The notes under the pieces were generated by a model. It was not told the DNA's origin, searched no databases, and saw nothing but the letters and a program-made list of their open reading frames with translations. This document shows positions 51,622 through 64,000 of a DNA stretch of 64,000 nt, one piece after another; within the stretch, counting starts at the first letter, position 1, and every line of letters starts with the position of its first letter. A program made the translations under genes and the position numbers. Source of the DNA: Hoeflea prorocentri (GTDB lineage Bacteria > Pseudomonadota > Alphaproteobacteria > Rhizobiales > Rhizobiaceae); contig NZ_JAPJZI010000001.1 in NCBI RefSeq assembly GCF_027944115.1, positions 620,001 through 684,000 of the forward strand, read 5' to 3'.

Positions 51622-52836
51622 TCAGTCCTCAGGAAGGTCGACCCAGCTGCCGCTCTGTGCGGATTCAAGGCAGGCCGACACCATCTTGGTGATTTCGAGG
51701 CCATCACGGAAATTCGGCCAGCTTGATCTGCCCGTTGCTGCCGATTCAAGCACTTGGGCGATCTCGATCGTCTTGAATTCGTTAAAGCCCAGTCCGAAAT
51801 TCGGCACGGGCAGGAAAGCGCCGTAATTTGCCCGATCGGGGCCGCAATCGATATCGCGCCATTGGGCGGCGCCATCAGGTGCTTCCGACATGAGGGCGAC
51901 CCTCAACCGGTTCACATTGTCATAGTCGAAGGCAATTGCGCCGCGATTGCCGTATATTTCATAGGTCTGGTGAAAGCGTCGGCCATGGGCCACGCGGCTG
52001 ACGTCTATCAGCCCCTTGCCGCCATTGGGAAACTTGCAAAGCAGGGTGACCATGTCCGAATTCGTCACCTTGCGGCGCGGTGCGTCCGCATCCATGACGG
52101 GAGCGCTCACATAGCCTGACCCTTCAACCACGGGCCGCTCAGCGGTGGTTGTCGCGACCTCGGCGACAAGGCTATCGACCTTGCCAAGCAGGTAATTCAC
52201 GTAGCTGAAGATGTGGGAGGCAATATCGCCTACCGTGCCTGTTGGCGACAGCTCGCCATCGCACCGCCACATGAAGGGCGCTTCAGGCGCGGCAAGCGCG
52301 TCGACATGCATGGATGCCTTGAACAGGACAAGATCGCCGATCGCGCCGTTCTCAATGAGCTCGCGGGTAATCTCATGTACAGGATTGATCGGGAAATTGT
52401 GACCCACCCGGCAGGCGAGATTTCTTTCCTCGGCCAATTGAGCAAGCTCCCTGGCCTGGTCGACTGTTTCGGTGAACGGTTTTTCGCAATAGACGTGTTT
52501 ACCGGCAAGCAACGCCGCCTTTGCGACCTCATAGTGTAGATTGTCCGGCAGGCAGATATCGACCAGATCCACGGCGGGGTCGTCCAGGGCTTCCTGCCAG
52601 GTGGGCGAGAAGCGGGCGCCGTCATAGTGTGGCCGAAGCGCGCTTAGAACATCGGGCGAGGCGTCGACGACCCAGATGATATCCGGGGCGACATCCTTTT
52701 CAGGGAAGAGTTGCGGAACGTTTCTGTATCCCAGCGTGTGGCACTTGCCCATCCAGCCACCCGCACCAAGCAATGCTACACGAACTTTTCTTGTCACAGT
52801 CTGTTGCTCCCGATTCCGCATCAAGTCGAGCGACAT
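51622..52836 (-). CDS. Gfo/Idh/MocA-family oxidoreductase
   Basis: The 404-residue protein has LLGAGGWMGKCHTLGYRN (Rossmann), LPDNLHYEVA, YCEKPFTETV (catalytic Lys) and GHNFPINPVHEITR. A longer C-terminal domain than in IolG includes GDIASHIFSYVNYLLG with the active-site His. It would oxidise a cyclitol or glycoside. It faces away from the dioxygenase gene with the operator at 52889 between them, so it is probably induced by inositol or its derivatives. Confidence 0.9.
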   Translation of the reverse strand: MSLDLMRNREQQTVTRKVRVALLGAGGWMGKCHTLGYRNVPQLFPEKDVAPDIIWVVDASPDVLSALRPHYDGARFSPTWQEALDDPAVDLVDICLPDNLHYEVAKAALLAGKHVYCEKPFTETVDQARELAQLAEERNLACRVGHNFPINPVHEITRELIENGAIGDLVLFKASMHVDALAAPEAPFMWRCDGELSPTGTVGDIASHIFSYVNYLLGKVDSLVAEVATTTAERPVVEGSGYVSAPVMDADAPRRKVTNSDMVTLLCKFPNGGKGLIDVSRVAHGRRFHQTYEIYGNRGAIAFDYDNVNRLRVALMSEAPDGAAQWRDIDCGPDRANYGAFLPVPNFGLGFNEFKTIEIAQVLESAATGRSSWPNFRDGLEITKMVSACLESAQSGSWVDLPED

Positions 52837-52888
52837 GATAGCACATGGGCAATCTTGGCTATCGACTCATAATGAGAGCGCTGCTATT

Positions 52889-52904
52889 TTGCAAGGCCTT
52901 GCAA
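52889..52904. promoter_or_regulatory. inositol operator TTGCAAGGCCTTGCAA (divergent)
   Basis: This perfect copy lies in the 91-bp gap between the divergent Gfo/Idh and dioxygenase genes, 23 bases upstream of the latter. Confidence 0.85.
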
Positions 52905-52927
52905 CATCGGTTTCGTCGGAGGAATGT

Positions 52928-54115
52928 ATGAACCGCATTGACAGCGACCAGTATCCTGTGTGGCTGAACGCAGACATGTTCGGGATTGAGGAATTCAAGG
53001 CGCAGCAACAGCGACAAACGACGAAAGATGATTGTCCGTTGGCGACTGATATTCATGCCAATGTGCCGATCTATGACGGGGCGGCTTTGTCCGATCCGCA
53101 ATTGCCGGAAGCAACATGGCGTTCCATCATGGCGGAATGGAACCGCGTGATGCGAAGCGGCGCGGGTATCATTGCGATCAAGGGTGCGATCGGCGATATC
53201 GAGATGCTCGACAAGGTCACGGATGTCCTGAACCGGATCATTCGCCAGGAAGAGGCGGCCGGGGACGGGCCGAGTGACCATTTTGCCGAGCTTGGCGCCA
53301 ATAGCCGGCTTTGGAATTCGCACGAAAAACTCTGTCAGGAGGCAACGGAACTTTTCATCCGCTACAACGCGAATGAAGTTCTTCATCGGGCCAGTGAAGC
53401 CTGGCTGGGGTACGGGTATCAGATCACCGCCCAGACCAACATCGTAAGGCCGGGCGGCAAGGCGCAGACCGCGCATCGCGACTTTCATATGGGTATTCAG
53501 CCTGAGGAGATCCTGGAGCGATATCCTGCGGATCAGCATCAGGTTGCGGCTCATTTGACGCTTCAGGGCGCGGTTGCCCATACGGATATGCCGATCGAAT
53601 CCGGGCCGACAAAGTTACTGCCCTTTTCCCAGACTTTTGTACCCGGCTATATCTCAATCCTGCATTCCGAGTTTCGCGACTATTTCGAGGAAAACTATAT
53701 CCAGATGCCGCTTCAAAAGGGTGACATGCTGTTTTTCAATCCAAGCGTTTTCCACGCGGCGGGTGACAATGTGACGACGGACATGCAGCGCTTTGCAAAT
53801 CTCATTCAGGTCAATTCGGCCTACGGGCGCCCGATGGAAATCGTCGATCGCGCCAGGATTTGCAAAAAGGTCTTTCCGCTTTTGCTCGGCATGAAAGGTG
53901 ACGGCTTGCTGACCGACCGGGAGATCGAGAATGTCCTGGCCGCATCCGCTGACGCATATCCGTTCCCGATCAATCTGGACCTCGATTCCCCGAAGGGTGA
54001 ACTTGCACCTCCAAGTCAACGGGCCGTCATGCGGCGGGCACTGGATGAACATTGGAGCCCGGCAGAATTTGCCGCAGATCTTGACGGCCAGGTATCAAGA
54101 CGCCGGTCGCATTGA
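52928..54115 (+). CDS. phytanoyl-CoA dioxygenase (PhyH)-family Fe(II)/2-oxoglutarate dioxygenase
   Basis: This 395-residue protein has a double-stranded beta-helix core with the iron ligands HRDFH (His-x-Asp) near residue 181 and the distal His in FHAAGDN near residue 278, followed by an Arg about ten residues later that may hold 2-oxoglutarate. An N-terminal segment of about 90 residues precedes the core. GGAGG lies five bases before the ATG. Its position directly behind an inositol operator is unusual. Oxidative removal of an O-methyl group, or hydroxylation of a cyclitol derivative, is an inference from context only. Confidence 0.85.
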   Translation: MNRIDSDQYPVWLNADMFGIEEFKAQQQRQTTKDDCPLATDIHANVPIYDGAALSDPQLPEATWRSIMAEWNRVMRSGAGIIAIKGAIGDIEMLDKVTDVLNRIIRQEEAAGDGPSDHFAELGANSRLWNSHEKLCQEATELFIRYNANEVLHRASEAWLGYGYQITAQTNIVRPGGKAQTAHRDFHMGIQPEEILERYPADQHQVAAHLTLQGAVAHTDMPIESGPTKLLPFSQTFVPGYISILHSEFRDYFEENYIQMPLQKGDMLFFNPSVFHAAGDNVTTDMQRFANLIQVNSAYGRPMEIVDRARICKKVFPLLLGMKGDGLLTDREIENVLAASADAYPFPINLDLDSPKGELAPPSQRAVMRRALDEHWSPAEFAADLDGQVSRRRSH

Positions 54116-54180
54116 TCCAATGACGGATCAATAGCGGTTCAGGCGAATTTTATGCGGTTTCAGACAGTGGGAGCTTCATC

Positions 54181-55143
54181 ATGGGAATAGCCATATTGGG
54201 TACAGGGCGTGTGGCGGAAATCCACGCGGAGGCCTTAACGGAAATGTATCCGGATGCTCTGGTTGGCGGCTGGAACCGGACGTTTGAGCGGGCAGAAATG
54301 TTTTGCCGGCGCTTTGGCGGGTCGGCTTTTCGCGATCTCAACGACGCTTTGAACAACAGTGACGTTGAGGCCGTGATTGTCACGACAAAGACCGAAACCC
54401 ACTTTGAGATAGCGAAACAGGCACTCGAATGCGGAAAGCACGTGTTGCTTGAAAAACCACTTTGCACGACAGCCGAAGAGATCGGAGCGCTGGCGGATAT
54501 TGCCCGCAAGAACGCGCTGATCTGCATGCCGTCTCACAATTACATCTACGCGCCGATCATGCGCCGTATGCGTGCGAGGGTGGAGCGGGGAGACCTCGGA
54601 AAAATCGGCAGCTACTGGGCTTTGTTCAACAATGTTCATCCGGCCGATGTGGGCCAGCCGGACCTCGTGATGCGTGAGTTGATGATCCATCACGTCTACA
54701 GCATGCTTTTTTTCCTGGGGCGGCCTTCAACCGTGACCGCAACCGCGACGAACACGCATTTTGAAAACAGGAATGCTGATGATCAGATCATGATCACGGC
54801 ACAATATCCAGGCGGAACGATTGCAAATCTTTGGGGAAGTTTCTCCACCGATGATGCGACGCGGGAGCCATGGTCCGTCTATTTCAAGCTTTTGGGCACG
54901 AAGGGCGGCGCAATGTCCGCCTGGGACCAGATCAAGTTCGGGCCGGAGCCCGAACCGCTTTGGGACGATGCATCTTACCGCGACAGTTTCCTGCACGCCC
55001 ATGAGTTTTTCCTGGAGCATTGCCTGGCTAAAGGCACCCCTCCGCTTTCAAGTCTTGAAGATGCGCAGGACTGCCTGCGCATTCTTGATGCTGCGCGCAT
55101 GTCCGTCAAAAGCGGTGAAAAGACTGCCATAGATTACAGCTGA
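54181..55143 (+). CDS. Gfo/Idh/MocA-family oxidoreductase
   Basis: The 320-residue protein has ILGTGRVAEIHAEAL at the N-terminus, TTKTETHFEIAKQAL, LLEKPLCTTAEE (catalytic Lys) and PSHNYIYAPIMRR. MIHHVYSMLFFLG carries the likely active-site His pair. It follows the dioxygenase gene by 65 bases in the same direction, so the two may be co-transcribed and act in sequence, for example oxidising the product of the dioxygenase. GGGAG precedes the ATG. Confidence 0.9.
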   Translation: MGIAILGTGRVAEIHAEALTEMYPDALVGGWNRTFERAEMFCRRFGGSAFRDLNDALNNSDVEAVIVTTKTETHFEIAKQALECGKHVLLEKPLCTTAEEIGALADIARKNALICMPSHNYIYAPIMRRMRARVERGDLGKIGSYWALFNNVHPADVGQPDLVMRELMIHHVYSMLFFLGRPSTVTATATNTHFENRNADDQIMITAQYPGGTIANLWGSFSTDDATREPWSVYFKLLGTKGGAMSAWDQIKFGPEPEPLWDDASYRDSFLHAHEFFLEHCLAKGTPPLSSLEDAQDCLRILDAARMSVKSGEKTAIDYS

Positions 55144-55209
55144 TCGGGCAATCCGGCGCTTCGGGCCAAACCACTCCGCCGTCCGCGACTTTTGAATCGC
55201 CCGGTCGCG

Positions 55210-56172
55210 CTATCCTGGCGTATAGTCCCGGTTTGCCTCTGGATCTTCAGTGGAATAGGGCAGCCCAGCCAGTTCCTGGCGGGCCGCGTCCGGTATTGTT
55301 TGCGTTGCCCACTCAATGGTCTGAGCAACCCGTTCGGGTTTTGAAACACCTACGATCGTTGAGGTGATGCGGGGATCGCTCATCGAGAAGTCCAACGCGG
55401 CAACCCCCGGAGCAAGGCCGTGCCTGGCACAGGCGGCCTCGACCAGACGCACCGGCTCAAGGGCTTCATGGCTTGCATCCTGGTATGTCAGTTTGGGCAT
55501 TTGGACACTGCCCTTCGCCAGTACGCCGCCTGCATAAGGCGCGGCGTTCAAAATCGCGATGCCGGCCTCATGGGCATAGTCGTACATCTCGTCGGCCTGA
55601 CGGTTCAAAAGTGTAAAGCGGTTGTGATTGATGAGCACGTCGAACGGGCGGTCGCGCAGAAGCGGGAACATGATGTCGATGCGACCCATTGCGAGGCCGA
55701 CCGCGTCTGCCAGACCCTCTTCCTTGATCTTGAAGAGTTCATCCAGTGCGCCGCCCGGTCCGGTAATCTCCTCCAGGCTCGCGGAGTGCTCCGGATCGTG
55801 AAGGTGCAGGACCTGAACCCGGTCGAGCGACAGTGCCTCAAGACTTTCTTCAAATGACTGCCGTGCACAGGACGCATCGAAACGGTTGGTTTCCATGTTT
55901 CTGTCAAGCTTGGTCGACAGCACAAAACCGTCCGGCAATCCGCCTCGTTCGCGAATGACCGCACCAATGCGTTCTTCGGCGCGGCCAAAGCCATAATTTC
56001 GCGATGTATCGAGGAAATTCACCGGGCTATCAAAAATGGCACGCACTGTGGCCCGGGCCCGTTCTTCGTCGACGCCGTAGCCATAGGTATCGGGCATGTC
56101 CGCAAGGGGCGATGTTCCAAAACACAGTTCGGTGACTTCCAGACCCGTGTTGCCTATGGCGCGGCGTTTCAT
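55210..56172 (-). CDS. aldo/keto reductase
   Basis: The 320-residue TIM-barrel oxidoreductase has the family tetrad: Asp in NFLDTSRNYG, Tyr in the same segment, Lys in LSTKLD and His in VLHLHDPEH. The N-terminal GNTGLEVTELCFGTSPLADM matches the L-fucose/D-threo-aldose 1-dehydrogenase group that oxidises aldoses to lactones. It would reduce or oxidise a sugar with NADP(H). It lies outside the visible operators, is convergent with the Gfo/Idh gene, and may be independent of the inositol genes. Confidence 0.9.
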   Translation of the reverse strand: MKRRAIGNTGLEVTELCFGTSPLADMPDTYGYGVDEERARATVRAIFDSPVNFLDTSRNYGFGRAEERIGAVIRERGGLPDGFVLSTKLDRNMETNRFDASCARQSFEESLEALSLDRVQVLHLHDPEHSASLEEITGPGGALDELFKIKEEGLADAVGLAMGRIDIMFPLLRDRPFDVLINHNRFTLLNRQADEMYDYAHEAGIAILNAAPYAGGVLAKGSVQMPKLTYQDASHEALEPVRLVEAACARHGLAPGVAALDFSMSDPRITSTIVGVSKPERVAQTIEWATQTIPDAARQELAGLPYSTEDPEANRDYTPG

Positions 56173-56653
56173 GTTTGCATCCTTATCATTTCTTTAGTCG
56201 GCTGATCTCACCCGTTATCTCAGCACACATGGGCGCGTGCTGCAAACCTTCCGGAAAGATCCTTTTTTCAGAACTCATTCAGGTTTGCGCAGAGCCCTGA
56301 CAGCTAAGCAAGACCATCCAAAACCTGCCGTCCTGGCGTGCGGCGGCAAAAGATCCGAGGGCGGCACGGCCGCTGATAACGCCATGGCGCGAGCACTTTT
56401 CATCAGCGGACAGGACGAGAGGATCAAGCTGACCATATCCTGTCCGATCACCACCGGGCTGTTTTCATGCCGCGCGTGTGTTCTGGCTGCTCGAAACTCT
56501 CGGACACCGCGATCGGGAATCTGACAACAGTTTCTACGGCAACTGGTCATGCCGCCGGCCTTGCAACACCTGCAGCCATATGAAATCAATGCTGTGCACG
56601 GTCCGCAACCGGCAGATGATCATCCCCACACCAGCGCAGCAGGTATATCCGCT
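56173..56653. other. 481-bp gap with a probable decayed rhodanese-like remnant
   Basis: No intact gene is seen. On the plus strand, GLFS (56456–56467) in one frame is followed one frame over by AARVFWLLETLGHRD (56469–56513). Together they resemble the core of rhodanese/3-mercaptopyruvate sulfurtransferase. The frame change and stops argue for a pseudogene. A single half-operator CCTTGCAA (56559–56566) is also present. The rest, including the promoter of the aminotransferase gene, is not resolved. Confidence 0.4.
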
Positions 56654-57781
56654 ATGAGCCAGCTCCCTTCATCCGTTGATCCCGGTGGCCTTCTCGAATA
56701 TTCGGTCGTTTTCACCGATCGCTCTCTGAACCATATGTCGAAACGCTTCCAGGGCGTGATGCGCGATATCTCCTCTTTGCTGGGGGAGGTCTACAACGCG
56801 GATGGAGTCGTGGTCGTGCCCGGCGGCGGAACCTATGCAATGGAGGCGGTCGCGCGCCAGTTCGCGACCGGCAAAAACTGCCTCGTCATTCGTGATGGCT
56901 GGTTTTCCTTCCGCTGGTCGCAGATTTTCGAGGCCGGTGATATTCCGGCCTCCACGACGGTCCTCAAGGCACAGCGCGTGTCGGATGATCTGCAAGCGCC
57001 CTTTGCGCCTCCGCCCGTTGAAGACGTGGTGGCCGCCATTGCCCGGGAAAAGCCCGATCTGGTCTTCGCGCCCCATGTCGAGACGTCCGCCGGCATCATG
57101 CTTCCCGACGCCTATATCCGGTCCGTTGCCGAGGCGGTGCGCGAGGTTGGCGGCCTGTTCGTGCTCGACTGCATCGCCTCCGGGGCGATGTGGGTCGATA
57201 TGCGCGAAAGCGGTGTTGATGTCCTGATCAGCGCCCCGCAAAAGGGCTGGAGTTCTTCACCTTCGAGCGGCCTTGTGATGCTGGGCGAGCGGGCTCTTGA
57301 GCGGCTCCCCGACACGGCCAGCACCAGTTTCGCCTGCGATCTGAAGAAATGGCATCAGATCATGCAGGCCTATGAAAATGGCGGACACGCCTATCATGCC
57401 ACGATGCCGACCGATGCACTGGCCGGCTTTCGCGATTCAATGGCCGAGACGAAGGCCCTGGGCTTCGATGAGCTTCGCGCCGGGCAACTGGAGCTGGGCT
57501 CCAGGGTCAGGACCCTGCTGGCGGAACGGGGCTTCAAGAGTGTTGCGGCGCCCGGTTTCGAGGCGCCCGGCGTTGTGGTCGTTTACACCGACGATGCCGA
57601 CAAGCACAATGGCAGCAAATTCGCCGCCCAAGGCATGCAGATCGCCGCCGGCGTTCCGCTGCAATGCGACGAACCGGAGGGGTTTCAAACCTTCCGGCTG
57701 GGCCTGTTCGGGCTCGACAAGCTGCATGATATCGACCGCACGGTGGATCGGCTGAAGACGGTTCTAGACCGTATCAACTAA
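56654..57781 (+). CDS. class V PLP-dependent aminotransferase (alanine–glyoxylate type)
   Basis: This 375-residue aminotransferase has the nucleotide-like glycine loop VVPGGGTYAMEAVARQF near residue 55, Asp172 (VLDCIASGAMW) and Lys197 (SAPQKGWSS) as the PLP ligand and Schiff-base residues. The wording fits the alanine–glyoxylate/serine–pyruvate aminotransferase group. Donor and acceptor are not known. The ATG at 56654 begins just before the conserved region; the ribosome site (AGG) is weak. The 3' end overlaps the remnant on the opposite strand. Confidence 0.9.
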   Translation: MSQLPSSVDPGGLLEYSVVFTDRSLNHMSKRFQGVMRDISSLLGEVYNADGVVVVPGGGTYAMEAVARQFATGKNCLVIRDGWFSFRWSQIFEAGDIPASTTVLKAQRVSDDLQAPFAPPPVEDVVAAIAREKPDLVFAPHVETSAGIMLPDAYIRSVAEAVREVGGLFVLDCIASGAMWVDMRESGVDVLISAPQKGWSSSPSSGLVMLGERALERLPDTASTSFACDLKKWHQIMQAYENGGHAYHATMPTDALAGFRDSMAETKALGFDELRAGQLELGSRVRTLLAERGFKSVAAPGFEAPGVVVVYTDDADKHNGSKFAAQGMQIAAGVPLQCDEPEGFQTFRLGLFGLDKLHDIDRTVDRLKTVLDRIN

Positions 57782-58203: not shown

Positions 58204-59073
58204 ATGCCTGAAATGGTCGAGCGCCGGGAAAACGGCATAGCCTATATCGAACGACCGGGGCCGGGGCCGGTGGTCGTGCTTCTGCACGGCATCGGCTCCA
58301 ACGCTTCGTCTTTCATGCCGCTGATTGAATGCCTGCCGGATCACCTGCACCTCATCTTGTGGAATGCTCCCGGTTACATGGGATCAAAACCGCTTGCCGA
58401 AGCCTGGCCCCTGCCAAGCGATTATGCGAGGGCGCTCGCCGGCCTGCTTGACGATATCGGCATATCCACCGTCCATTTGTTCGGACATTCGCTTGGCACG
58501 TTGATCGCGGCCGAGTTTGCCAGACAACACCCTAACCGGGTCGACCGGCTTGTTCTGGCGTCGGCGGCAAATGGCTACGGTATCTCACAAGGCGATCCTC
58601 TGCCTGAAAAAGCCGCCGGCCGAATTGAAGAACTTGAACGTCTTGGCCCGGAGGTATTTGCCCGCTCAAGGGCGGCTAATCTCGTGCATGAACCGGCCGG
58701 GCATCCGGATGTTGTCGCGCATGTCGAAGAGGCGATGGCACAGGTGCGCCTGCCAGGATACGGGCAAGCAGTGCATATGCTGGCGTCCGGAGACCTTGCC
58801 GCGATGATCGGAACCGTTCCGGTCTGTCCGGGCTTTATCATCGGTGCACAGGACCGGATTACACCGATGGACCAGACGCAAAAAGCCGCCGGAGCCTGGG
58901 CCGCTGTGCACGGGCATGCTCCGGCTCTTATTGCAATCGAGGAGGCTGGACACGCGGCCTATGTCCAAAGGCCGCAGCGCTTTGCCTCCGCTTTACTGGA
59001 ACTTCTCGGGGAACCAGCGACGAGGAGCGCTTACTGCATGGCGCGAAAATCAAACGGAGAAAACCATGTCTGA
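58204..59073 (+). CDS. alpha/beta-fold hydrolase
   Basis: The 289-residue hydrolase has the oxyanion loop LLHGIGSNASSF, nucleophile Ser96 in GHSLG, acid Asp217 (AQDRIT) and base His250 (EEAGHAAY), so the triad is complete. This is the MhpC/PcaD-like group that hydrolyses esters, enol-lactones or C–C bonds of ring-cleavage products. With an extradiol-type dioxygenase gene overlapping it by eight bases, cleavage of a ring-fission product is a reasonable guess. The ribosome site is weak (AAGGCG). Confidence 0.9.
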   Translation: MPEMVERRENGIAYIERPGPGPVVVLLHGIGSNASSFMPLIECLPDHLHLILWNAPGYMGSKPLAEAWPLPSDYARALAGLLDDIGISTVHLFGHSLGTLIAAEFARQHPNRVDRLVLASAANGYGISQGDPLPEKAAGRIEELERLGPEVFARSRAANLVHEPAGHPDVVAHVEEAMAQVRLPGYGQAVHMLASGDLAAMIGTVPVCPGFIIGAQDRITPMDQTQKAAGAWAAVHGHAPALIAIEEAGHAAYVQRPQRFASALLELLGEPATRSAYCMARKSNGENHV

Positions 59074-59974
59074 TGATCCAAGGGTCGGCCATTTGCGGGG
59101 CATCGTTATGCGGGCTCCGGGTATAACGGCGACGACCAATTTCTATACGGAAAACTGGGGTTTGCACGTTTCTCATGAAGAAGACGGCATGACCTATCTT
59201 CGCGGTTCGGGCAGCGAACCTTTCATATACGGCCTGAAAGATGATGATGTTTATGGCATCGAATATGTCCATTTCGGCATGCCCGACCGCAGCTCAGTCG
59301 ACGCCATTCATGCCCGGTTGGTTGAGATGGGAGCGAAGTTGCTCAGCGCCCCCGCCGAGCTTGATGGGCCTTTCGGCGGTTACGGTTTTGAACTTCTGGA
59401 CCCGGATGGCAGACGATTGCGGATTACATCGGACCTGCAGATGCGCGCGCCGGAGAAGGTGCACGCCTTTCCCCACAAGGTCAGCCATGTTGTTTTGAAC
59501 ACGCCGGATCTGGAGGCGACCCAGAAATGGTACGAGGATATGCTCGGCTTCCGGACCAGCGACTATTCGGCCGACCAGATGATTTTCCTGCGCTGTGGAA
59601 GCGATCATCACGCCATCGCACTTGTGCGTGCGCAGTACCCTTCAGTTAATCATGTGGCTTTTGAAATGCCGGGCATCGATAGTTTCATGCGTGGCATCGG
59701 CCGTATGAAACAAAAAGGACAAGCGCCGAGCTGGGGGCCGGGACGACACGGTCCGGGTAACAATCCCTTTGCCTATTTCGTCTCGCCTTCGGGCTATGTC
59801 ATCGAGTTTACCGCGGACGTTCAGCAGATCGACGAGGCGACGCACGAACCGAAAGTCTGGTCACGCACAGATCCCGAGGCGATGGATCAGTGGATGACGG
59901 CAGGTCCGCCAACGCCGGCGCAACGCGCTGTGATGGCCGGTCGCCCGGACCCAGGTTTCTCGGCGGGCGGTTAG
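59066..59974 (+). CDS. two-domain VOC extradiol-type ring-cleavage dioxygenase
   Basis: This 302-residue protein has two vicinal-oxygen-chelate modules, residues 7 to 125 and 137 to 255. The second holds His141 (VSHVVLNTPDLE), His196 (SVNHVAFE) and Glu247 (YVIEFTAD), the standard Fe(II)/Mn(II) triad of catechol 2,3-dioxygenases. It should cleave a catechol-like or hydroxylated ring next to the diol. A tail of about 45 residues rich in Pro and Gly follows. GGAGA precedes the ATG, which overlaps the hydrolase stop. A substrate other than a simple catechol is likely given the neighbours. Confidence 0.88.
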   Translation: MSDDPRVGHLRGIVMRAPGITATTNFYTENWGLHVSHEEDGMTYLRGSGSEPFIYGLKDDDVYGIEYVHFGMPDRSSVDAIHARLVEMGAKLLSAPAELDGPFGGYGFELLDPDGRRLRITSDLQMRAPEKVHAFPHKVSHVVLNTPDLEATQKWYEDMLGFRTSDYSADQMIFLRCGSDHHAIALVRAQYPSVNHVAFEMPGIDSFMRGIGRMKQKGQAPSWGPGRHGPGNNPFAYFVSPSGYVIEFTADVQQIDEATHEPKVWSRTDPEAMDQWMTAGPPTPAQRAVMAGRPDPGFSAGG

Positions 59975-59978
59975 GCTT

Positions 59979-60770
59979 ATGGATATTGGACTTAAGGGCA
60001 AGACCGTCGTCGTTACAGGCGGTTCTTCAGGGATCGGACTTGCCGCCGTGCGGGTGTTCCTCGAGGAGGGCGCGCGTGTTGCTTTGTGCGCGCGTGGTGC
60101 CGACCGTCTGGCAGATGCGGAAGCGGAGCTTGCAGGAACTTTTGGAGCGGACAATGTCTTTGCCCGGGCTCTTTCAGTGCTGGACAAGGACGCCGTTGCC
60201 AGCTTTGCTCAGGATGTCGGCTCCCGGTTCGGTGATTGCCAGGTCTTGGTAACCAATGCCGGCCAGGGCAGGGTTTCGACCTTTGCCGATACCGGTGATG
60301 AGGATTGGCGTGATGAATTGGAGTTGAAATTCTTCAGCCAGCTTCACCCGATCCGGGCCTTCGAGACGATGCTTCGCACGTCCGGTGCCGGTTCGATCGT
60401 TGCGGTCAACTCGCTTCTCGCCTATCAGCCGGAGCCGCATATGGTCTGTACGTCGGCCGCGCGGGCGGGGGTGCAGAACCTGCTGAAGTCGCTGGCGACG
60501 GAATTTGCACCCGATATCCGTGTGAACTCCATCTTGCTGGGTCTCGTCGACAGCCAGCAATGGCAGCGCCGTTTCGATGCGCGTGAGGATCAGAGCCAGT
60601 CGCGTGACGACTGGTATGATGCGCTCGCGCGACAAAAGAAGATCCCCCTTGGCCGTCTCGGGGACCCGCATGAGGCCGCGCGGGCCATCGCCTTTCTTGC
60701 ATCACCGGCAGCCAGTTACATCACCGGAGCAAGACTTGAAGTCTCCGGTGGTGTCTCGCGTTTTGTCTAA
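59979..60770 (+). CDS. SDR-family protein without the usual YxxxK
   Basis: The 263-residue protein has an intact cofactor motif VVTGGSSGIGLAAVRVF and TNAGQG. The normal catalytic Tyr-x-x-x-Lys position reads CTSAARAGVQNL, so Tyr and Lys appear replaced (T…R), while the Ser before it (NSLLAYQPEP) is kept. The end GARLEVSGGVSRFV is typical. Either chemistry differs or it binds cofactor without the usual reaction. It begins four bases after the dioxygenase stop. Confidence 0.85.
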   Translation: MDIGLKGKTVVVTGGSSGIGLAAVRVFLEEGARVALCARGADRLADAEAELAGTFGADNVFARALSVLDKDAVASFAQDVGSRFGDCQVLVTNAGQGRVSTFADTGDEDWRDELELKFFSQLHPIRAFETMLRTSGAGSIVAVNSLLAYQPEPHMVCTSAARAGVQNLLKSLATEFAPDIRVNSILLGLVDSQQWQRRFDAREDQSQSRDDWYDALARQKKIPLGRLGDPHEAARAIAFLASPAASYITGARLEVSGGVSRFV

Positions 60771-60794
60771 CAATAATAAAGGGAGCCAAACCTT

Positions 60795-62447
60795 ATGGCA
60801 CAGACTGTCGGGTACAGAATCGCCGAAGCACTTGCAGATGCAGGCGTGACGACGATGTTCGGCGTCATTTCAATTCACAATATGCCGATCCTTGACGCTG
60901 TTGCCGAACAGGGGCGGATCCGGTTTATCCCGGCGCGCGGCGAAGCCGGAGCCATGAACATGGCCGACGCCTTCAGCAGGGTTTCCGGTGAGCTGGGCGT
61001 TGCCCTGACCTCGACCGGCACGGCGGCCGGCAACGCGGCGGGTGCACAGGCCGAAGCCCTGACCGCCGGCAGCCGTGTCCTGCACATTACATCGACGGTC
61101 GATCGGGCGCTGATGGACCGCGATCGCGCTGCCATTCATGATGTGCCGAAACAGCCGGAGATGTTGCGGGGGATTTCCAAGGCCCTGTTTCGCATTTGGG
61201 ATGAGAAAGGGGTGCAGGGGACGATTTCAGCGGCAATCCGCGCCGCGCTCACGCCGCCGACCGGTCCCGTCAGTCTTGAAGTCCCGATCGATGTGCAGCG
61301 TGCGCAAGCTGTTGCGGGCGAAAAACTGCGGGTGCCCGTGCCAGCCCTTCCTCAGCACGATACCGCGGCGCTGGATGCGCTGGCGGCGCGCATTTTGGCT
61401 GCCCGGCGCCCCATGCTCTGGCTCGGCGGCGGCGCAAGGGGTGCGGCACAGGAAGCCACGGAGCTGGTGAAGCGTGGCTTTGGTGCGGTGAGTTCGACAC
61501 AAGGGCGTGGTGTTGTGCCGGAAAGTCACAGTGCAAGCCTTGGTGCATTTAACATGACCCCAGAGGCGGAAGAGATTTACGCCTCATGCGATCTGATGAT
61601 CGTTGTCGGCTCGCGCCTTCGCGGCAACGAGACCCGCAACAACAAGATGGCTCTGCCGTCCCCGCTCTTCCAGATCGATGCTGAGCCGACGCAGTGGGGC
61701 CGGAACTATCCGGTCGACGGTTTCATCTGCGGTGATGCGGCGCTGACATTGAGAGCGTTGCTCGACCGGCTGCCCGAAAGCCTCGAGACCGATCCACAGT
61801 TTCATTATGACATTGCCGTGGCCAGGGCGAAGTCCGAGGGCGCATTGCGTACCCGGCTCGGTCCCTATCAGGTCGTCGCCGATCATCTGCTGTCGACGGT
61901 TTCCTCCGGGCCTCATCCCTGGGTCAGGGACGTAACGATCTCCAATTCCACATTCGGCAATCGCTATGTGCAGGTAGCCGCCCCGAACCTTGGTGTCCAC
62001 GCGCTGGGCGGCGGCATCGGGCAGGGCATTGCGATGGCCGTTGGCGCTGCCGTTGCCGCGCCGGGTGTGCGGACATACACTCTGCTTGGCGACGGGGGTG
62101 CACAGCTTGGGCTTGCCGAATTGATCACCGCTGTTGATCAAGAACTGCCGATCACCTTTGTCCTCATGAATGATGCGGCCTACGGCGTGATCGAAAACAT
62201 ACAGGATGCGCAATATGGCGGGCGCAGGCACTATTCCAAGCTCAAAACGCCGGATTTCGGCCTGCTTTGTTCTGCAATCGATATGCCCCATACCCGTGTG
62301 GAAAGGATCGAGGACTTTGTTGCGGCGGTGGATGGCGCGGCGGACCGCTCCGGTCCGGTGATGGTCGAGGTCGACATGATTTCCATCGGGCCCTTCGCGG
62401 AAGCCTTTGCAGGTCCGCCGGCAGGGGCCGCCGGGAGCCAGGTATGA
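60795..62447 (+). CDS. thiamine diphosphate-dependent enzyme (acetolactate synthase/decarboxylase-like)
   Basis: The 550-residue protein has the three domains of the POX/ALS group. Glu50 (ARGEAGAMNMADAF) would activate the cofactor, the middle domain starts near residue 190, and the ThDP-Mg loop reads LLGDGGAQLG near residue 432 with NDAAYG as its far end. It would decarboxylate or ligate a 2-oxo acid. Its natural substrate is unknown. GGGAG lies ten bases before the ATG. The stop overlaps the next gene by four bases. Confidence 0.9.
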   Translation: MAQTVGYRIAEALADAGVTTMFGVISIHNMPILDAVAEQGRIRFIPARGEAGAMNMADAFSRVSGELGVALTSTGTAAGNAAGAQAEALTAGSRVLHITSTVDRALMDRDRAAIHDVPKQPEMLRGISKALFRIWDEKGVQGTISAAIRAALTPPTGPVSLEVPIDVQRAQAVAGEKLRVPVPALPQHDTAALDALAARILAARRPMLWLGGGARGAAQEATELVKRGFGAVSSTQGRGVVPESHSASLGAFNMTPEAEEIYASCDLMIVVGSRLRGNETRNNKMALPSPLFQIDAEPTQWGRNYPVDGFICGDAALTLRALLDRLPESLETDPQFHYDIAVARAKSEGALRTRLGPYQVVADHLLSTVSSGPHPWVRDVTISNSTFGNRYVQVAAPNLGVHALGGGIGQGIAMAVGAAVAAPGVRTYTLLGDGGAQLGLAELITAVDQELPITFVLMNDAAYGVIENIQDAQYGGRRHYSKLKTPDFGLLCSAIDMPHTRVERIEDFVAAVDGAADRSGPVMVEVDMISIGPFAEAFAGPPAGAAGSQV

Positions 62448-63274
62448 GCCTGGGCCATGTTGCAATCATCGGCTATGGCGCGATTGCTCAGGATCTTGTC
62501 GGCATTTTGAGCGGTGCAGGCGAAGGGGCGCCGACGTGTATCTCCCTGCTGGTGCGGCAGGAGCGCGTCAGTCAGACCCACGAGGCTGTCCGCTCGCTTT
62601 ATGCGTCCGCGAGCGTTCTGCAGATAACATCTGACGTCGACGACATTTTGGGGGCTGCGCCGGATGTGGTCGCGGAATGCGCCGGGCACGAGGCTGTCGG
62701 CAAGCTGGCTCCGGCAGTTCTTGCCGGTGGGGTCGATCTCGTCGTGTCTTCAGTAGGCGCTCTTGCCGATGAGGCAGTGATGTTTGAAATACAGTCAGCC
62801 GCACGGGGCTCCGGTGCCCAGTGCCTTGTTCCGGCGGGTGCCATTGGCGGTATCGACGCGCTTGCCGCTGCCCGGCTGTCAGGGTTGCAATCGGTCAGCT
62901 ATACGGGCCGCAAACCACCATCGGCCTGGGCGGGGACGCCTGCGGAGACGCTGATAGATCTTTCCGCACTCACCGAAGAAAGCGTGTTCTTTGCCGGCTC
63001 GGCGCGTGATGCTGCGCAATCCTATCCAAAAAACGCCAATGTCGCAGCGACCGTCGCACTGGCCGGAACCGGTATGGATGAGACGCAAGTCCGTCTCATT
63101 GCCGACCCCTCGATAAACGAGAATGTGCACGAAATCACGGTGGCGTCCGATGCCAGCGATTTTTCCATGCGTTTCGTGGCGAAGCCGTCGAAACGAAATC
63201 CGAAGACCTCACGCTCAACCGTCTACAGCATCGCTCGTGCGGTTTTGAACCGTGGCGCGGCACTTGTGATTTGA
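62444..63274 (+). CDS. nadX: L-aspartate dehydrogenase-like protein
   Basis: The 276-residue protein has a Rossmann motif VAIIGYGAIAQDLVGIL, the CAGHEAVGKLAPAVLAGGVD stretch and VVSSVGALAD, and the catalytic-region His in NENVHEIT. PAGAIGGIDAL and NANVAATVALAGTGMD are family signatures. Such enzymes interconvert oxaloacetate and L-aspartate with NAD(P) and ammonia, or supply iminoaspartate for NAD synthesis. Here it sits inside a catabolic operon, so it may instead process an amino or imino acid from the pathway. Its ATG overlaps the ThDP-enzyme stop. Confidence 0.88.
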   Translation: MSLGHVAIIGYGAIAQDLVGILSGAGEGAPTCISLLVRQERVSQTHEAVRSLYASASVLQITSDVDDILGAAPDVVAECAGHEAVGKLAPAVLAGGVDLVVSSVGALADEAVMFEIQSAARGSGAQCLVPAGAIGGIDALAAARLSGLQSVSYTGRKPPSAWAGTPAETLIDLSALTEESVFFAGSARDAAQSYPKNANVAATVALAGTGMDETQVRLIADPSINENVHEITVASDASDFSMRFVAKPSKRNPKTSRSTVYSIARAVLNRGAALVI

Positions 63275-63282
63275 GACAGCCG

Positions 63283-64000
63283 ATGACAGAGACGTTTCGT
63301 GAAGATCTGATTTTCATCGGCGGTCAATGGCGGCAGGGGCGCGGGGCGCCCATTACATCGCTTTTTGCCGCAGAAGGTGTCGACAACACCACGATTTCGG
63401 GCGCCTCTTCAGAGGATGTTGAAGAGGCGATCGCCGTTGCGTGCCGCGCGCAGTCGGATCCGGCGTGGCAAAATCTCAAGGCTCATGAACGCGCATCGTT
63501 CCTTTACAGGATTTCTCAAGGCATCTCCGAGAACATCGAGCGCATTGCCTGGGTGCAAAGCCGCGATACGTCCAAGACGCTAACCGAGACAAGGGCCCTG
63601 GCTGCATCGGCGGCAGGCACGTTCCGCTATTTTGCAGCGGTGCTTGAAACTGCAGACGACCTTCTGACCGTGCCTCGCGGTGATTACCTGACGGCGTCTG
63701 TTCACGAATCCATGGGGCCGGTTGCGGCGATTACGCCCTGGAACTCGCCGATTGCCTCCGATGCGCAGAAGGTTGCGCCGGCGCTTGCGGCCGGAAACGC
63801 GGTTTTGCTGAAGCCGTCGAGCTGGTCGCCGCTCGTCAGTCTAGAACTTGCCCGTATTATCGAAGAGGCGGGTCTGCCGGCCGGTCTTTTTTCGGTCCTG
63901 CCGGGATCGGGGCGCGAGGTCGGCAATCTTCTGGTTGAACATCCCGACATACAAAAGGTTTCCTTCACCGGTGGAACGGTAACCGGCAAGCGGATTGCCC
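63283..64000 (+). CDS. NAD(P)-dependent aldehyde dehydrogenase, 3' end outside window
   Basis: About 239 residues of the N-terminal part are seen: FIGGQWRQGRG, the catalytic-site Asn in AITPWNSP, the cofactor Lys in LLKPSSWSPL, GLFSVLPGSG and FTGGTVTGKRIA. The catalytic Cys and Glu lie beyond the window. It would oxidise a semialdehyde or aldehyde formed earlier in the operon to the acid. It follows the aspartate-dehydrogenase-like gene by eight bases. Confidence 0.93.
   Translation, partial: MTETFREDLIFIGGQWRQGRGAPITSLFAAEGVDNTTISGASSEDVEEAIAVACRAQSDPAWQNLKAHERASFLYRISQGISENIERIAWVQSRDTSKTLTETRALAASAAGTFRYFAAVLETADDLLTVPRGDYLTASVHESMGPVAAITPWNSPIASDAQKVAPALAAGNAVLLKPSSWSPLVSLELARIIEEAGLPAGLFSVLPGSGREVGNLLVEHPDIQKVSFTGGTVTGKRIA

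Follow-up and report, generated by a model that had tools for sequence, protein, structure and literature searches.

The six-gene operon and its proteins

The window analysed here, a stretch of 64,000 nucleotides from Hoeflea prorocentri (contig NZ_JAPJZI010000001.1; G000:C1:620001-684000), ends within a run of six forward-strand genes that would encode the cleavage of an aromatic ring and the degradation steps after it. Coordinates are given in window numbering, carried on past 64000. An alpha/beta hydrolase (ABH; 58204..59073), recognized by Pfam and NCBIfam models, is followed by a type I extradiol ring-cleavage dioxygenase (EDO) of the glyoxalase fold (59066..59974), a short-chain dehydrogenase/reductase (SDR) of the PRK07062 family (59979..60770; 401.8 bits, cut-off 266), a thiamine diphosphate (ThDP) enzyme of the PRK07064 family that is probably a 2-oxo acid decarboxylase (60795..62447; 755.4 bits, cut-off 495), an L-aspartate-dehydrogenase-family protein (AspDH; 62444..63274; 262.2 bits against NF009827, cut-off 226) and an aldehyde dehydrogenase (ALDH; 63283..64000), which is truncated by the window end and has its genomic stop at 64776. 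The spacings between the six open reading frames are -8, +4, +24, -4 and +8 bases, as stated in the original prediction, which had them overlapping or lying within 25 bases of each other. The single operon that it proposed is probable, the argument being one of tight spacing and conserved gene order rather than of transcripts.

The catalytic residues that had been named for the first two proteins proved invariant: Ser96, Asp217 and His250 of ABH are present in 80/80 aligned relatives, and His141, His196 and Glu247 of EDO in 59/59 sequences of the window's dioxygenase type (in these and the following residue counts, sequences under a length cut are omitted and a few genomes are counted twice). 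EDO thereby carries the two histidine and one glutamate metal ligands of type I extradiol dioxygenases. Its best solved relative is 3b59, deposited as a glyoxalase/bleomycin resistance protein/dioxygenase (E 3.6e-59), with homoprotocatechuate dioxygenases far behind. In sequence comparison the protein closest to ABH is HsaD, a C-C hydrolase, though only at E 7.9e-14; the fold model of ABH is of high predicted local distance difference test score (pLDDT 95.1), and the nearest folds are esterases and C-C hydrolases, which are not separable by fold.

Models confirm the fold family of the operon SDR, which nevertheless departs from the classical Ser-Tyr-Lys set: Ser145 is retained, while the catalytic Tyr and Lys are replaced by Thr158 and Arg162 in 89/89 sequences. 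The best match in the PDB is ‘Short Chain Oxidoreductase Q9HYA2’ (E 4.5e-87), with an identical TSAARAG motif. The operon enzyme is set apart from standard carbonyl SDRs, and a role in reducing a conjugated double bond would be in keeping with this. The ThDP enzyme is one 550-residue chain with three TPP domains, and its activating Glu50 is invariant (95/95), features that place it in the acetolactate synthase/decarboxylase superfamily; its matches include BbmA, acetolactate synthases, pyruvate oxidase and benzoylformate decarboxylase. The AspDH-like protein is closest to the L-aspartate dehydrogenase 2dc1 and retains the catalytic histidine (His229, 78/78) together with NPKN-like and NxHE motifs, which with its model score assigns it to that family and predicts the activity. 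Cys286 and Glu252 of ALDH are invariant in 75/75 sequences.

Conservation, distribution and the genes beyond the window

A search with the ThDP protein returned 131 relatives, of which the best 80 loci were kept. Gene neighbourhoods were compared in the 67 loci with at least 6 kb either side of the ThDP gene, a set that counts three genomes twice (L005/L108, L018/L110, L051/L107) and includes one locus, L076, that is not a cluster. Identity thresholds were set by us, and gene families came from our own gene caller and clustering, by which some small genes were missed; L132, L134 and L135, for which there were no calls, were excluded from the neighbour comparison. All six core genes are present in 51/67 loci, and individually ABH is found in 64, EDO in 63, SDR in 65, AspDH in 59 and ALDH in 60. 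The gene set is thus conserved as such, as had been anticipated, and is no chance neighbourhood. EDO is of the window's type in 45/67 loci and of a second type in 18/67; the latter, a distantly related family (EDO.21), substitutes for the window type in L050, L055-L058, L061, L063, L064, L067, L079, L080, L083, L099-L106, L113, L116 and L117.

The best 80 loci come from Rhodobacteraceae, Rhizobiales, Roseomonas and its relatives, Thioglobus-type gammaproteobacteria and others, and relatives of Burkholderia are among the carriers; cultured carriers include Sedimentitalea nanhaiensis DSM 24252, Limimaricola cinnabarinus and Pararhodobacter marinus. Two partly overlapping genome samples were surveyed: 398 genomes of the window's phylum, where the ThDP family lies above its cut-off in 15, the window's own included, and 300 genomes of the order of G324, which we take to be Burkholderiales from protein identity to Burkholderia and Caballeronia records, where the enzyme occurs in 13. 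The ThDP gene is found in none of the 16 other listed genomes of the window's family, while the closest proteins among the best 80 of the 131 relatives (79-82% identity) are mostly from Rhodobacteraceae; horizontal transfer of the cluster is therefore likely. At E 1e-100 the ThDP gene was found in 14 plasmid records, and the cluster surrounds it in those of Vibrio nigripulchritudo, Paracoccus sp. MA, Nitratireductor sp. OM-1 and Caballeronia sp. NK8. The base composition of the cluster differs little from that of the remaining window (0.595 versus 0.578) and no tRNA lies within the 64-kb window, so that, despite the patchy distribution, there is no compositional sign of recent transfer.

Two of the plasmids have peculiarities of their own. 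The Vibrio nigripulchritudo cluster (L114:14750-28088) lies on a plasmid typed as conjugative; its flavin adenine dinucleotide (FAD) hydroxylase was called in two pieces, and the record annotates no gene there. The Caballeronia stretch L116:256-20699 has two ThDP genes ∼18 kb apart, each with its own EDO gene; the first set is cut by the edge of the stretch, and the second ThDP gene is flanked by a molybdenum hydroxylase on one side and a Rieske gene on the other.

The original prediction had taken the set at 58204-64000 to be complete. This does not hold: the cluster extends past the window to ∼77.06 kb, and entry oxygenases, regulators and a transporter lie in the outside part, 64773-77058. 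Convergent with the operon is an IclR regulator (64773-65597, minus strand, with the start set by our gene caller; the longest open reading frame begins at 65684). A FAD aromatic hydroxylase (65788-66924), a three-gene tripartite ATP-independent periplasmic (TRAP) transporter (66937-69800; DctP was identified by Pfam and the permeases by eye), a sulfatase-like protein (69800-71371; the scan covered its first 67 residues only) and a second FAD hydroxylase (71383-72585) follow on the plus strand. On the minus strand lie a canonical SDR with a YVASK motif (73119-73847), a Rieske oxygenase (73844-74896), a small HTH_62 protein (74909-75256) and a two-domain cupin (75266-76237); the last gene, on the plus strand, is an IclR-like regulator recognized by eye (76285-77058).

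The Rieske gene of the window's genome is thus ∼9 kb beyond the ALDH stop and adjoins the canonical SDR. A Rieske or FAD entry gene occurs in 65/67 loci: Rieske alone in 28, FAD hydroxylase alone in 17 and both in 20, although the stretches are short and ‘alone’ does not mean genome-wide absence. The entry genes were also searched in 41 cluster genomes, the 43 of a kynureninase search (15 genomes plus 29 of the 80 loci, L019 excepted) less the duplicates G398 and G407. With the L047 homologue as query, Rieske proteins were found in 37 of these 41 cluster genomes, including all 15 well-completed ones, and FAD hydroxylase at E 1e-60 in 31, in one of which (G413) identity is just ≤42%. No genome of the 41 lacks both, but as ∼1 would be expected under independence, complementarity cannot be judged from this. 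The Rieske protein of L077 is closest to carbazole dioxygenase oxygenases. Cupins, in one- or two-domain form, are present in 45/67 loci; the fold model of the two-domain cupin (pLDDT 78.1) resembles oxalate-decarboxylase-like and seed-storage cupins, folds too general to indicate a function.

Other parts of the neighbourhood may be noted. The sulfatase-like gene (family f25) stands behind the TRAP transporter in many TRAP-carrying loci, for example L004 and L077, which suggests that the aromatic may also be taken up as a sulfate ester and then desulfated. The HTH_62 gene (‘recombinase-like’, family f9) usually accompanies the Rieske gene in one gene string, the families occurring in 50 and 57 of 95 loci, and its product may be an oxygenase partner instead of a DNA-binding protein. 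Upstream of the operon (52676-57781), oxygenase-like, Gfo/Idh-like dehydrogenase, aldo/keto-reductase-like and class V-like aminotransferase genes were recognized by eye; for the aminotransferase, a search of the 80 loci at E 1e-8 returned nothing.

This gene content bears on two conventional explanations. In the first, the cluster encodes an ordinary catechol meta-cleavage pathway and AspDH simply supplies aspartate for nitrogen assimilation or NAD synthesis, as NadX. EDO, a C-C-hydrolase-like ABH and ALDH are indeed found in meta pathways, and the NadX model TIGR03855 is among the AspDH matches, below its cut-off. However, no hydratase, aldolase, acylating aldehyde dehydrogenase, oxalocrotonate tautomerase or decarboxylase of such a pathway is among the genes read in 58204-77058 (a reading of part of the open reading frames of this region, and of this region of the genome only), whereas the opa cluster has all those lower-pathway genes (PMC6362003), and AspDH is retained in 59/67 loci. 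With the hydratase-aldolase branch not seen in the window organism's cluster and AspDH conserved, this improbable explanation was set aside, in agreement with the earlier remark that the set matches no standard meta pathway.

In the second, the pathway would be of the nicotinate type, for a monocyclic hydroxypyridine carboxylate; the FAD hydroxylase would act in the manner of NicC, and EDO would open a dihydroxypyridine. In its favour, the FAD hydroxylase is closest to 6-hydroxynicotinate 3-monooxygenase (E 3.3e-85). Against it, FAD hydroxylase was unmatched in 10/41 cluster genomes and weak in an eleventh, while the Rieske gene was missing in 4/41, and the nicotinate route is not known to involve a ThDP enzyme or a Rieske oxygenase. 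We regard this explanation as slightly less probable still than the meta-cleavage one.

A proposed route from quinoline-2-carboxylates to iminosuccinate

Several observations point to a nitrogen-containing substrate. First, a molybdenum hydroxylase adjoins the cluster in L027 (Roseomonas), L116 (the Caballeronia plasmid), L127 and L128; the large subunits of L027, L127 and L128, that of L127 being partial, are 65-67% identical to that of L116. In addition, L058 and L063 have pieces of another molybdenum hydroxylase, recognized by eye, and L130 has one of 32% identity. Across the 300 genomes of the order of G324, the enzyme occurs at 63-65% identity in five, the next match being at 43%; four of these five carry the cluster, compared with 13/300 overall (Fisher 1.1e-5). 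The carrier without the cluster is a genome 84% complete, and in G196 the gene and the cluster are on different contigs. Second, the RidA family (Pfam Ribonuc_L-PSP), whose members hydrolyse imines and enamines, is found in 4/8 loci without AspDH as compared with 6/59 loci with it (p 0.014). Third, there is AspDH itself: a Delftia enzyme of its family, set at 100% activity for oxaloacetate, reaches 2 to 3% when given pyruvate or 2-oxoglutarate (PMC5554190). Because this enzyme is so specific for oxaloacetate/aspartate, the substrate of AspDH is expected to be a C4 amino or imino acid. The similarity of the FAD hydroxylase to 6-hydroxynicotinate 3-monooxygenase, given above, is a further sign, and the weak linkage to kynurenine genes described below is another.

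Overall we consider it very probable that the substrate of the pathway is some nitrogen-heteroaromatic or amino-aromatic acid, a class that takes in the proposal made below, the nicotinate-type explanation above and a further alternative to which we return. The original prediction had suggested a nitrogen-containing ring or an amino dicarboxylate as substrate; the former is likely, while an amino dicarboxylate is more likely a product, as iminosuccinate, than the substrate.

Kynurenic acid is a breakdown product of tryptophan, and its aerobic degradation in Pseudomonas proceeds by 7,8-dihydroxylation, dehydrogenation and extradiol cleavage to 5-(3-carboxy-3-oxopropenyl)-4,6-dihydroxypicolinate (EC 1.14.99.2, 1.3.1.18 and 1.13.11.10), after which the side chain is reduced and decarboxylated and the resulting aldehyde is oxidized to 5-(2-carboxyethyl)-4,6-dihydroxypicolinate. 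To our knowledge the enzymes of this route, described decades ago, have never been tied to genes, and among the openly licensed papers listed in our searches, which is no proof of absence, we found no gene assignment for the present gene set or for 7,8-dihydroxykynurenate. Drawing on the observed gene content, gene order and conservation, the catalytic residues and the linked genes, we propose, at roughly even odds (probability about 0.5), that the operon encodes the ring-cleavage and lower part of quinoline-2-carboxylate catabolism, with substrates of the tryptophan-kynurenine family: kynurenate, xanthurenate and, in some hosts, quinaldate.

According to this proposal, the acid would be imported by a TRAP or ATP-binding cassette (ABC) transporter. 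The Rieske oxygenase and the canonical SDR would convert kynurenate to 7,8-dihydroxykynurenate; the FAD hydroxylase would lead from xanthurenate to the same compound, and in some hosts the molybdenum hydroxylase would convert quinaldate to kynurenate as a first step. EDO would then cut the 8,8a bond to give 5-(3-carboxy-3-oxopropenyl)-4,6-dihydroxypicolinate, after which the divergent SDR would reduce the side-chain double bond, the ThDP enzyme would decarboxylate the 2-oxo acid to the aldehyde and ALDH would oxidize the latter to 5-(2-carboxyethyl)-4,6-dihydroxypicolinate. ABH, perhaps together with the cupin, would open the lactam and split a C-C bond, using two waters, to yield glutarate and iminosuccinate; these last two hydrolytic steps are given to it by elimination and are the most tentative of all the assignments. 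Finally, AspDH would convert iminosuccinate to L-aspartate or, alternatively, RidA would convert it to oxaloacetate. By computation, all eleven equations of the route balance.

Several features of the cluster agree with this scheme. A Rieske-type entry gene and a dihydrodiol-dehydrogenase-like gene, with predicted substrates, are linked to the ring-cleavage genes, as a kynurenate pathway requires. Candidates for the reductase, decarboxylase and aldehyde dehydrogenase that would act on the 3-carboxy-3-oxopropenyl side chain are present and conserved, their reactions being predicted. The occurrence of varying entry modules on a constant core would be explained if xanthurenate, by way of the FAD hydroxylase, and quinaldate, by way of the molybdenum hydroxylase, feed the same route. 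Moreover, the route by way of iminosuccinate is the one reading we found that gives AspDH a place. Homarine was also considered as a candidate substrate; the listing of a single literature search gave no degradation genes for it, and it was set aside.

Linkage to kynurenine genes is weak, a hint rather than proof. In L068 and L077 a kynureninase gene is found 5-6 kb away from the cluster, and in G208 kynureninase and a gene resembling tryptophan dioxygenase (TDO) by eye lie ∼9 kb upstream of it. Kynureninase occurs in 11/15 cluster genomes and in 99/383 others, in a comparison that ignores kinship.

A number of points weigh against the quinoline-2-carboxylate proposal. Kynureninase is absent from 4/15 complete cluster genomes and is near the cluster in just 2/67 loci, and TDO, searched with one query, is near it in 0/67; the window's own genome has its kynureninase gene on contig C2, apart from the cluster. 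Of the Thioglobus-type genomes, G425 has kynureninase and the Rieske gene on different contigs, and in G423 kynureninase was not found. Among curated models the molybdenum hydroxylase matches 4-hydroxybenzoyl-CoA reductase and xanthine dehydrogenase best, each with a score under the cut-off; enzymes of this kind do not necessarily act on quinolines, and a quinoline substrate is putative here. The RidA signal comes from two lineages, 4/8 of the loci without AspDH have no RidA, and one of the eight is L076, which is no cluster. NicC-type hydroxylases often decarboxylate during hydroxylation, and 7-hydroxylation of xanthurenate would need no such decarboxylation. The roles of the cupin, the HTH_62 protein and the sulfatase are unexplained. 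The last point concerns P. aeruginosa, presumably a carrier of the cluster. In rich medium this organism releases kynurenic acid to micromolar levels (PMC4938989), an observation that is not in favour of a kynurenate pathway being active there under those conditions.

These points leave room for a pathway of the same logic with another substrate, in which a different bicyclic nitrogen heteroaromatic acid or an amino-aromatic acid, entering by way of Rieske/SDR or the FAD hydroxylase, would undergo ring cleavage, decarboxylation and oxidation to give an imino dicarboxylate. The evidence from the molybdenum hydroxylase, RidA and AspDH indicates a nitrogen compound and no particular one, and few loci have kynurenine genes close by. 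On the other hand, the kynurenate route is the only one known to us in which ring cleavage must be followed by a reduction, the decarboxylation of a 2-oxo acid and the oxidation of an aldehyde, and kynureninase is near the cluster in three genomes. Overall we think another substrate possible but rather unlikely. Returning to the quinoline-2-carboxylates, we suggest, more tentatively than for the substrate family by itself, that the cluster is the genetic basis of aerobic degradation of kynurenate, xanthurenate and quinaldate, ending in iminosuccinate, and that it includes a new, Ser-Thr-Arg type of SDR that reduces a C=C bond.

If this is correct, genes would be in hand for orphan enzymes of tryptophan breakdown, and a function for a cluster of Rhodobacteraceae, Thioglobus-type gammaproteobacteria, Rhizobiales, Roseomonas and relatives of Burkholderia. 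Iminosuccinate as end product would explain why AspDH belongs to the set, and may also account for what aspartate dehydrogenases do physiologically in P. aeruginosa and Ralstonia. Animals and plants use kynurenate and xanthurenate as signalling metabolites, and genes for their degradation would be useful to know for work on gut, soil and ocean. Even with another substrate, a direct test is possible, with few proteins and cheap candidate substrates.

Comparison with known systems

With the kynurenate route of Pseudomonas, known as biochemistry, the cluster shares one candidate gene for each required step from entry to aldehyde oxidation; the difference is that the steps of its hydrolase, cupin and AspDH go beyond the established scheme. 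The original prediction had also pointed to a related set around an aspartate dehydrogenase gene of P. aeruginosa, a set that we take to be PA3503-PA3511, in presumed order and content. The parallel fits in that Q9HYA2, the best PDB match of the operon SDR, shares its TSAARAG motif; Q9HYA2 is presumably PA3507, near the aspartate dehydrogenase gene PA3505. The presumed P. aeruginosa gene order resembles that of locus L104.

The riboflavin/lumichrome (lum) cluster of Nocardioides likewise combines a molybdenum hydroxylase of the xanthine-oxidase type, a Rieske enzyme, an EDO and ThDP-dependent decarboxylation in one nitrogen-heterocycle pathway (PMC12746152). Its ThDP enzyme, however, consists of two small subunits, LumK and LumL (20 and 23 kDa), that act on the heterocycle itself, and the pathway finishes with a hydratase and a retro-aldolase, the main text never mentioning aspartate dehydrogenase (PMC12746152). 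The ThDP enzyme of the operon being a single 550-residue chain instead of such a two-subunit heterocycle decarboxylase, the lum pathway was rejected as a model. The opa o-phthalate/2,3-dihydroxybenzoate meta pathway resembles the cluster in its Rieske enzyme, dihydrodiol dehydrogenase, EDO, semialdehyde dehydrogenase and alpha/beta hydrolase, but has a classical hydratase-aldolase lower pathway, with neither thiamine nor aspartate dehydrogenase in the main text (PMC6362003). The L-aspartate dehydrogenases of Ralstonia, P. aeruginosa and Delftia were characterised as single enzymes, with no pathway named in the part of the report available; according to family models, rather than comparison of the sequences themselves, the operon protein belongs to the same family (PMC5554190).

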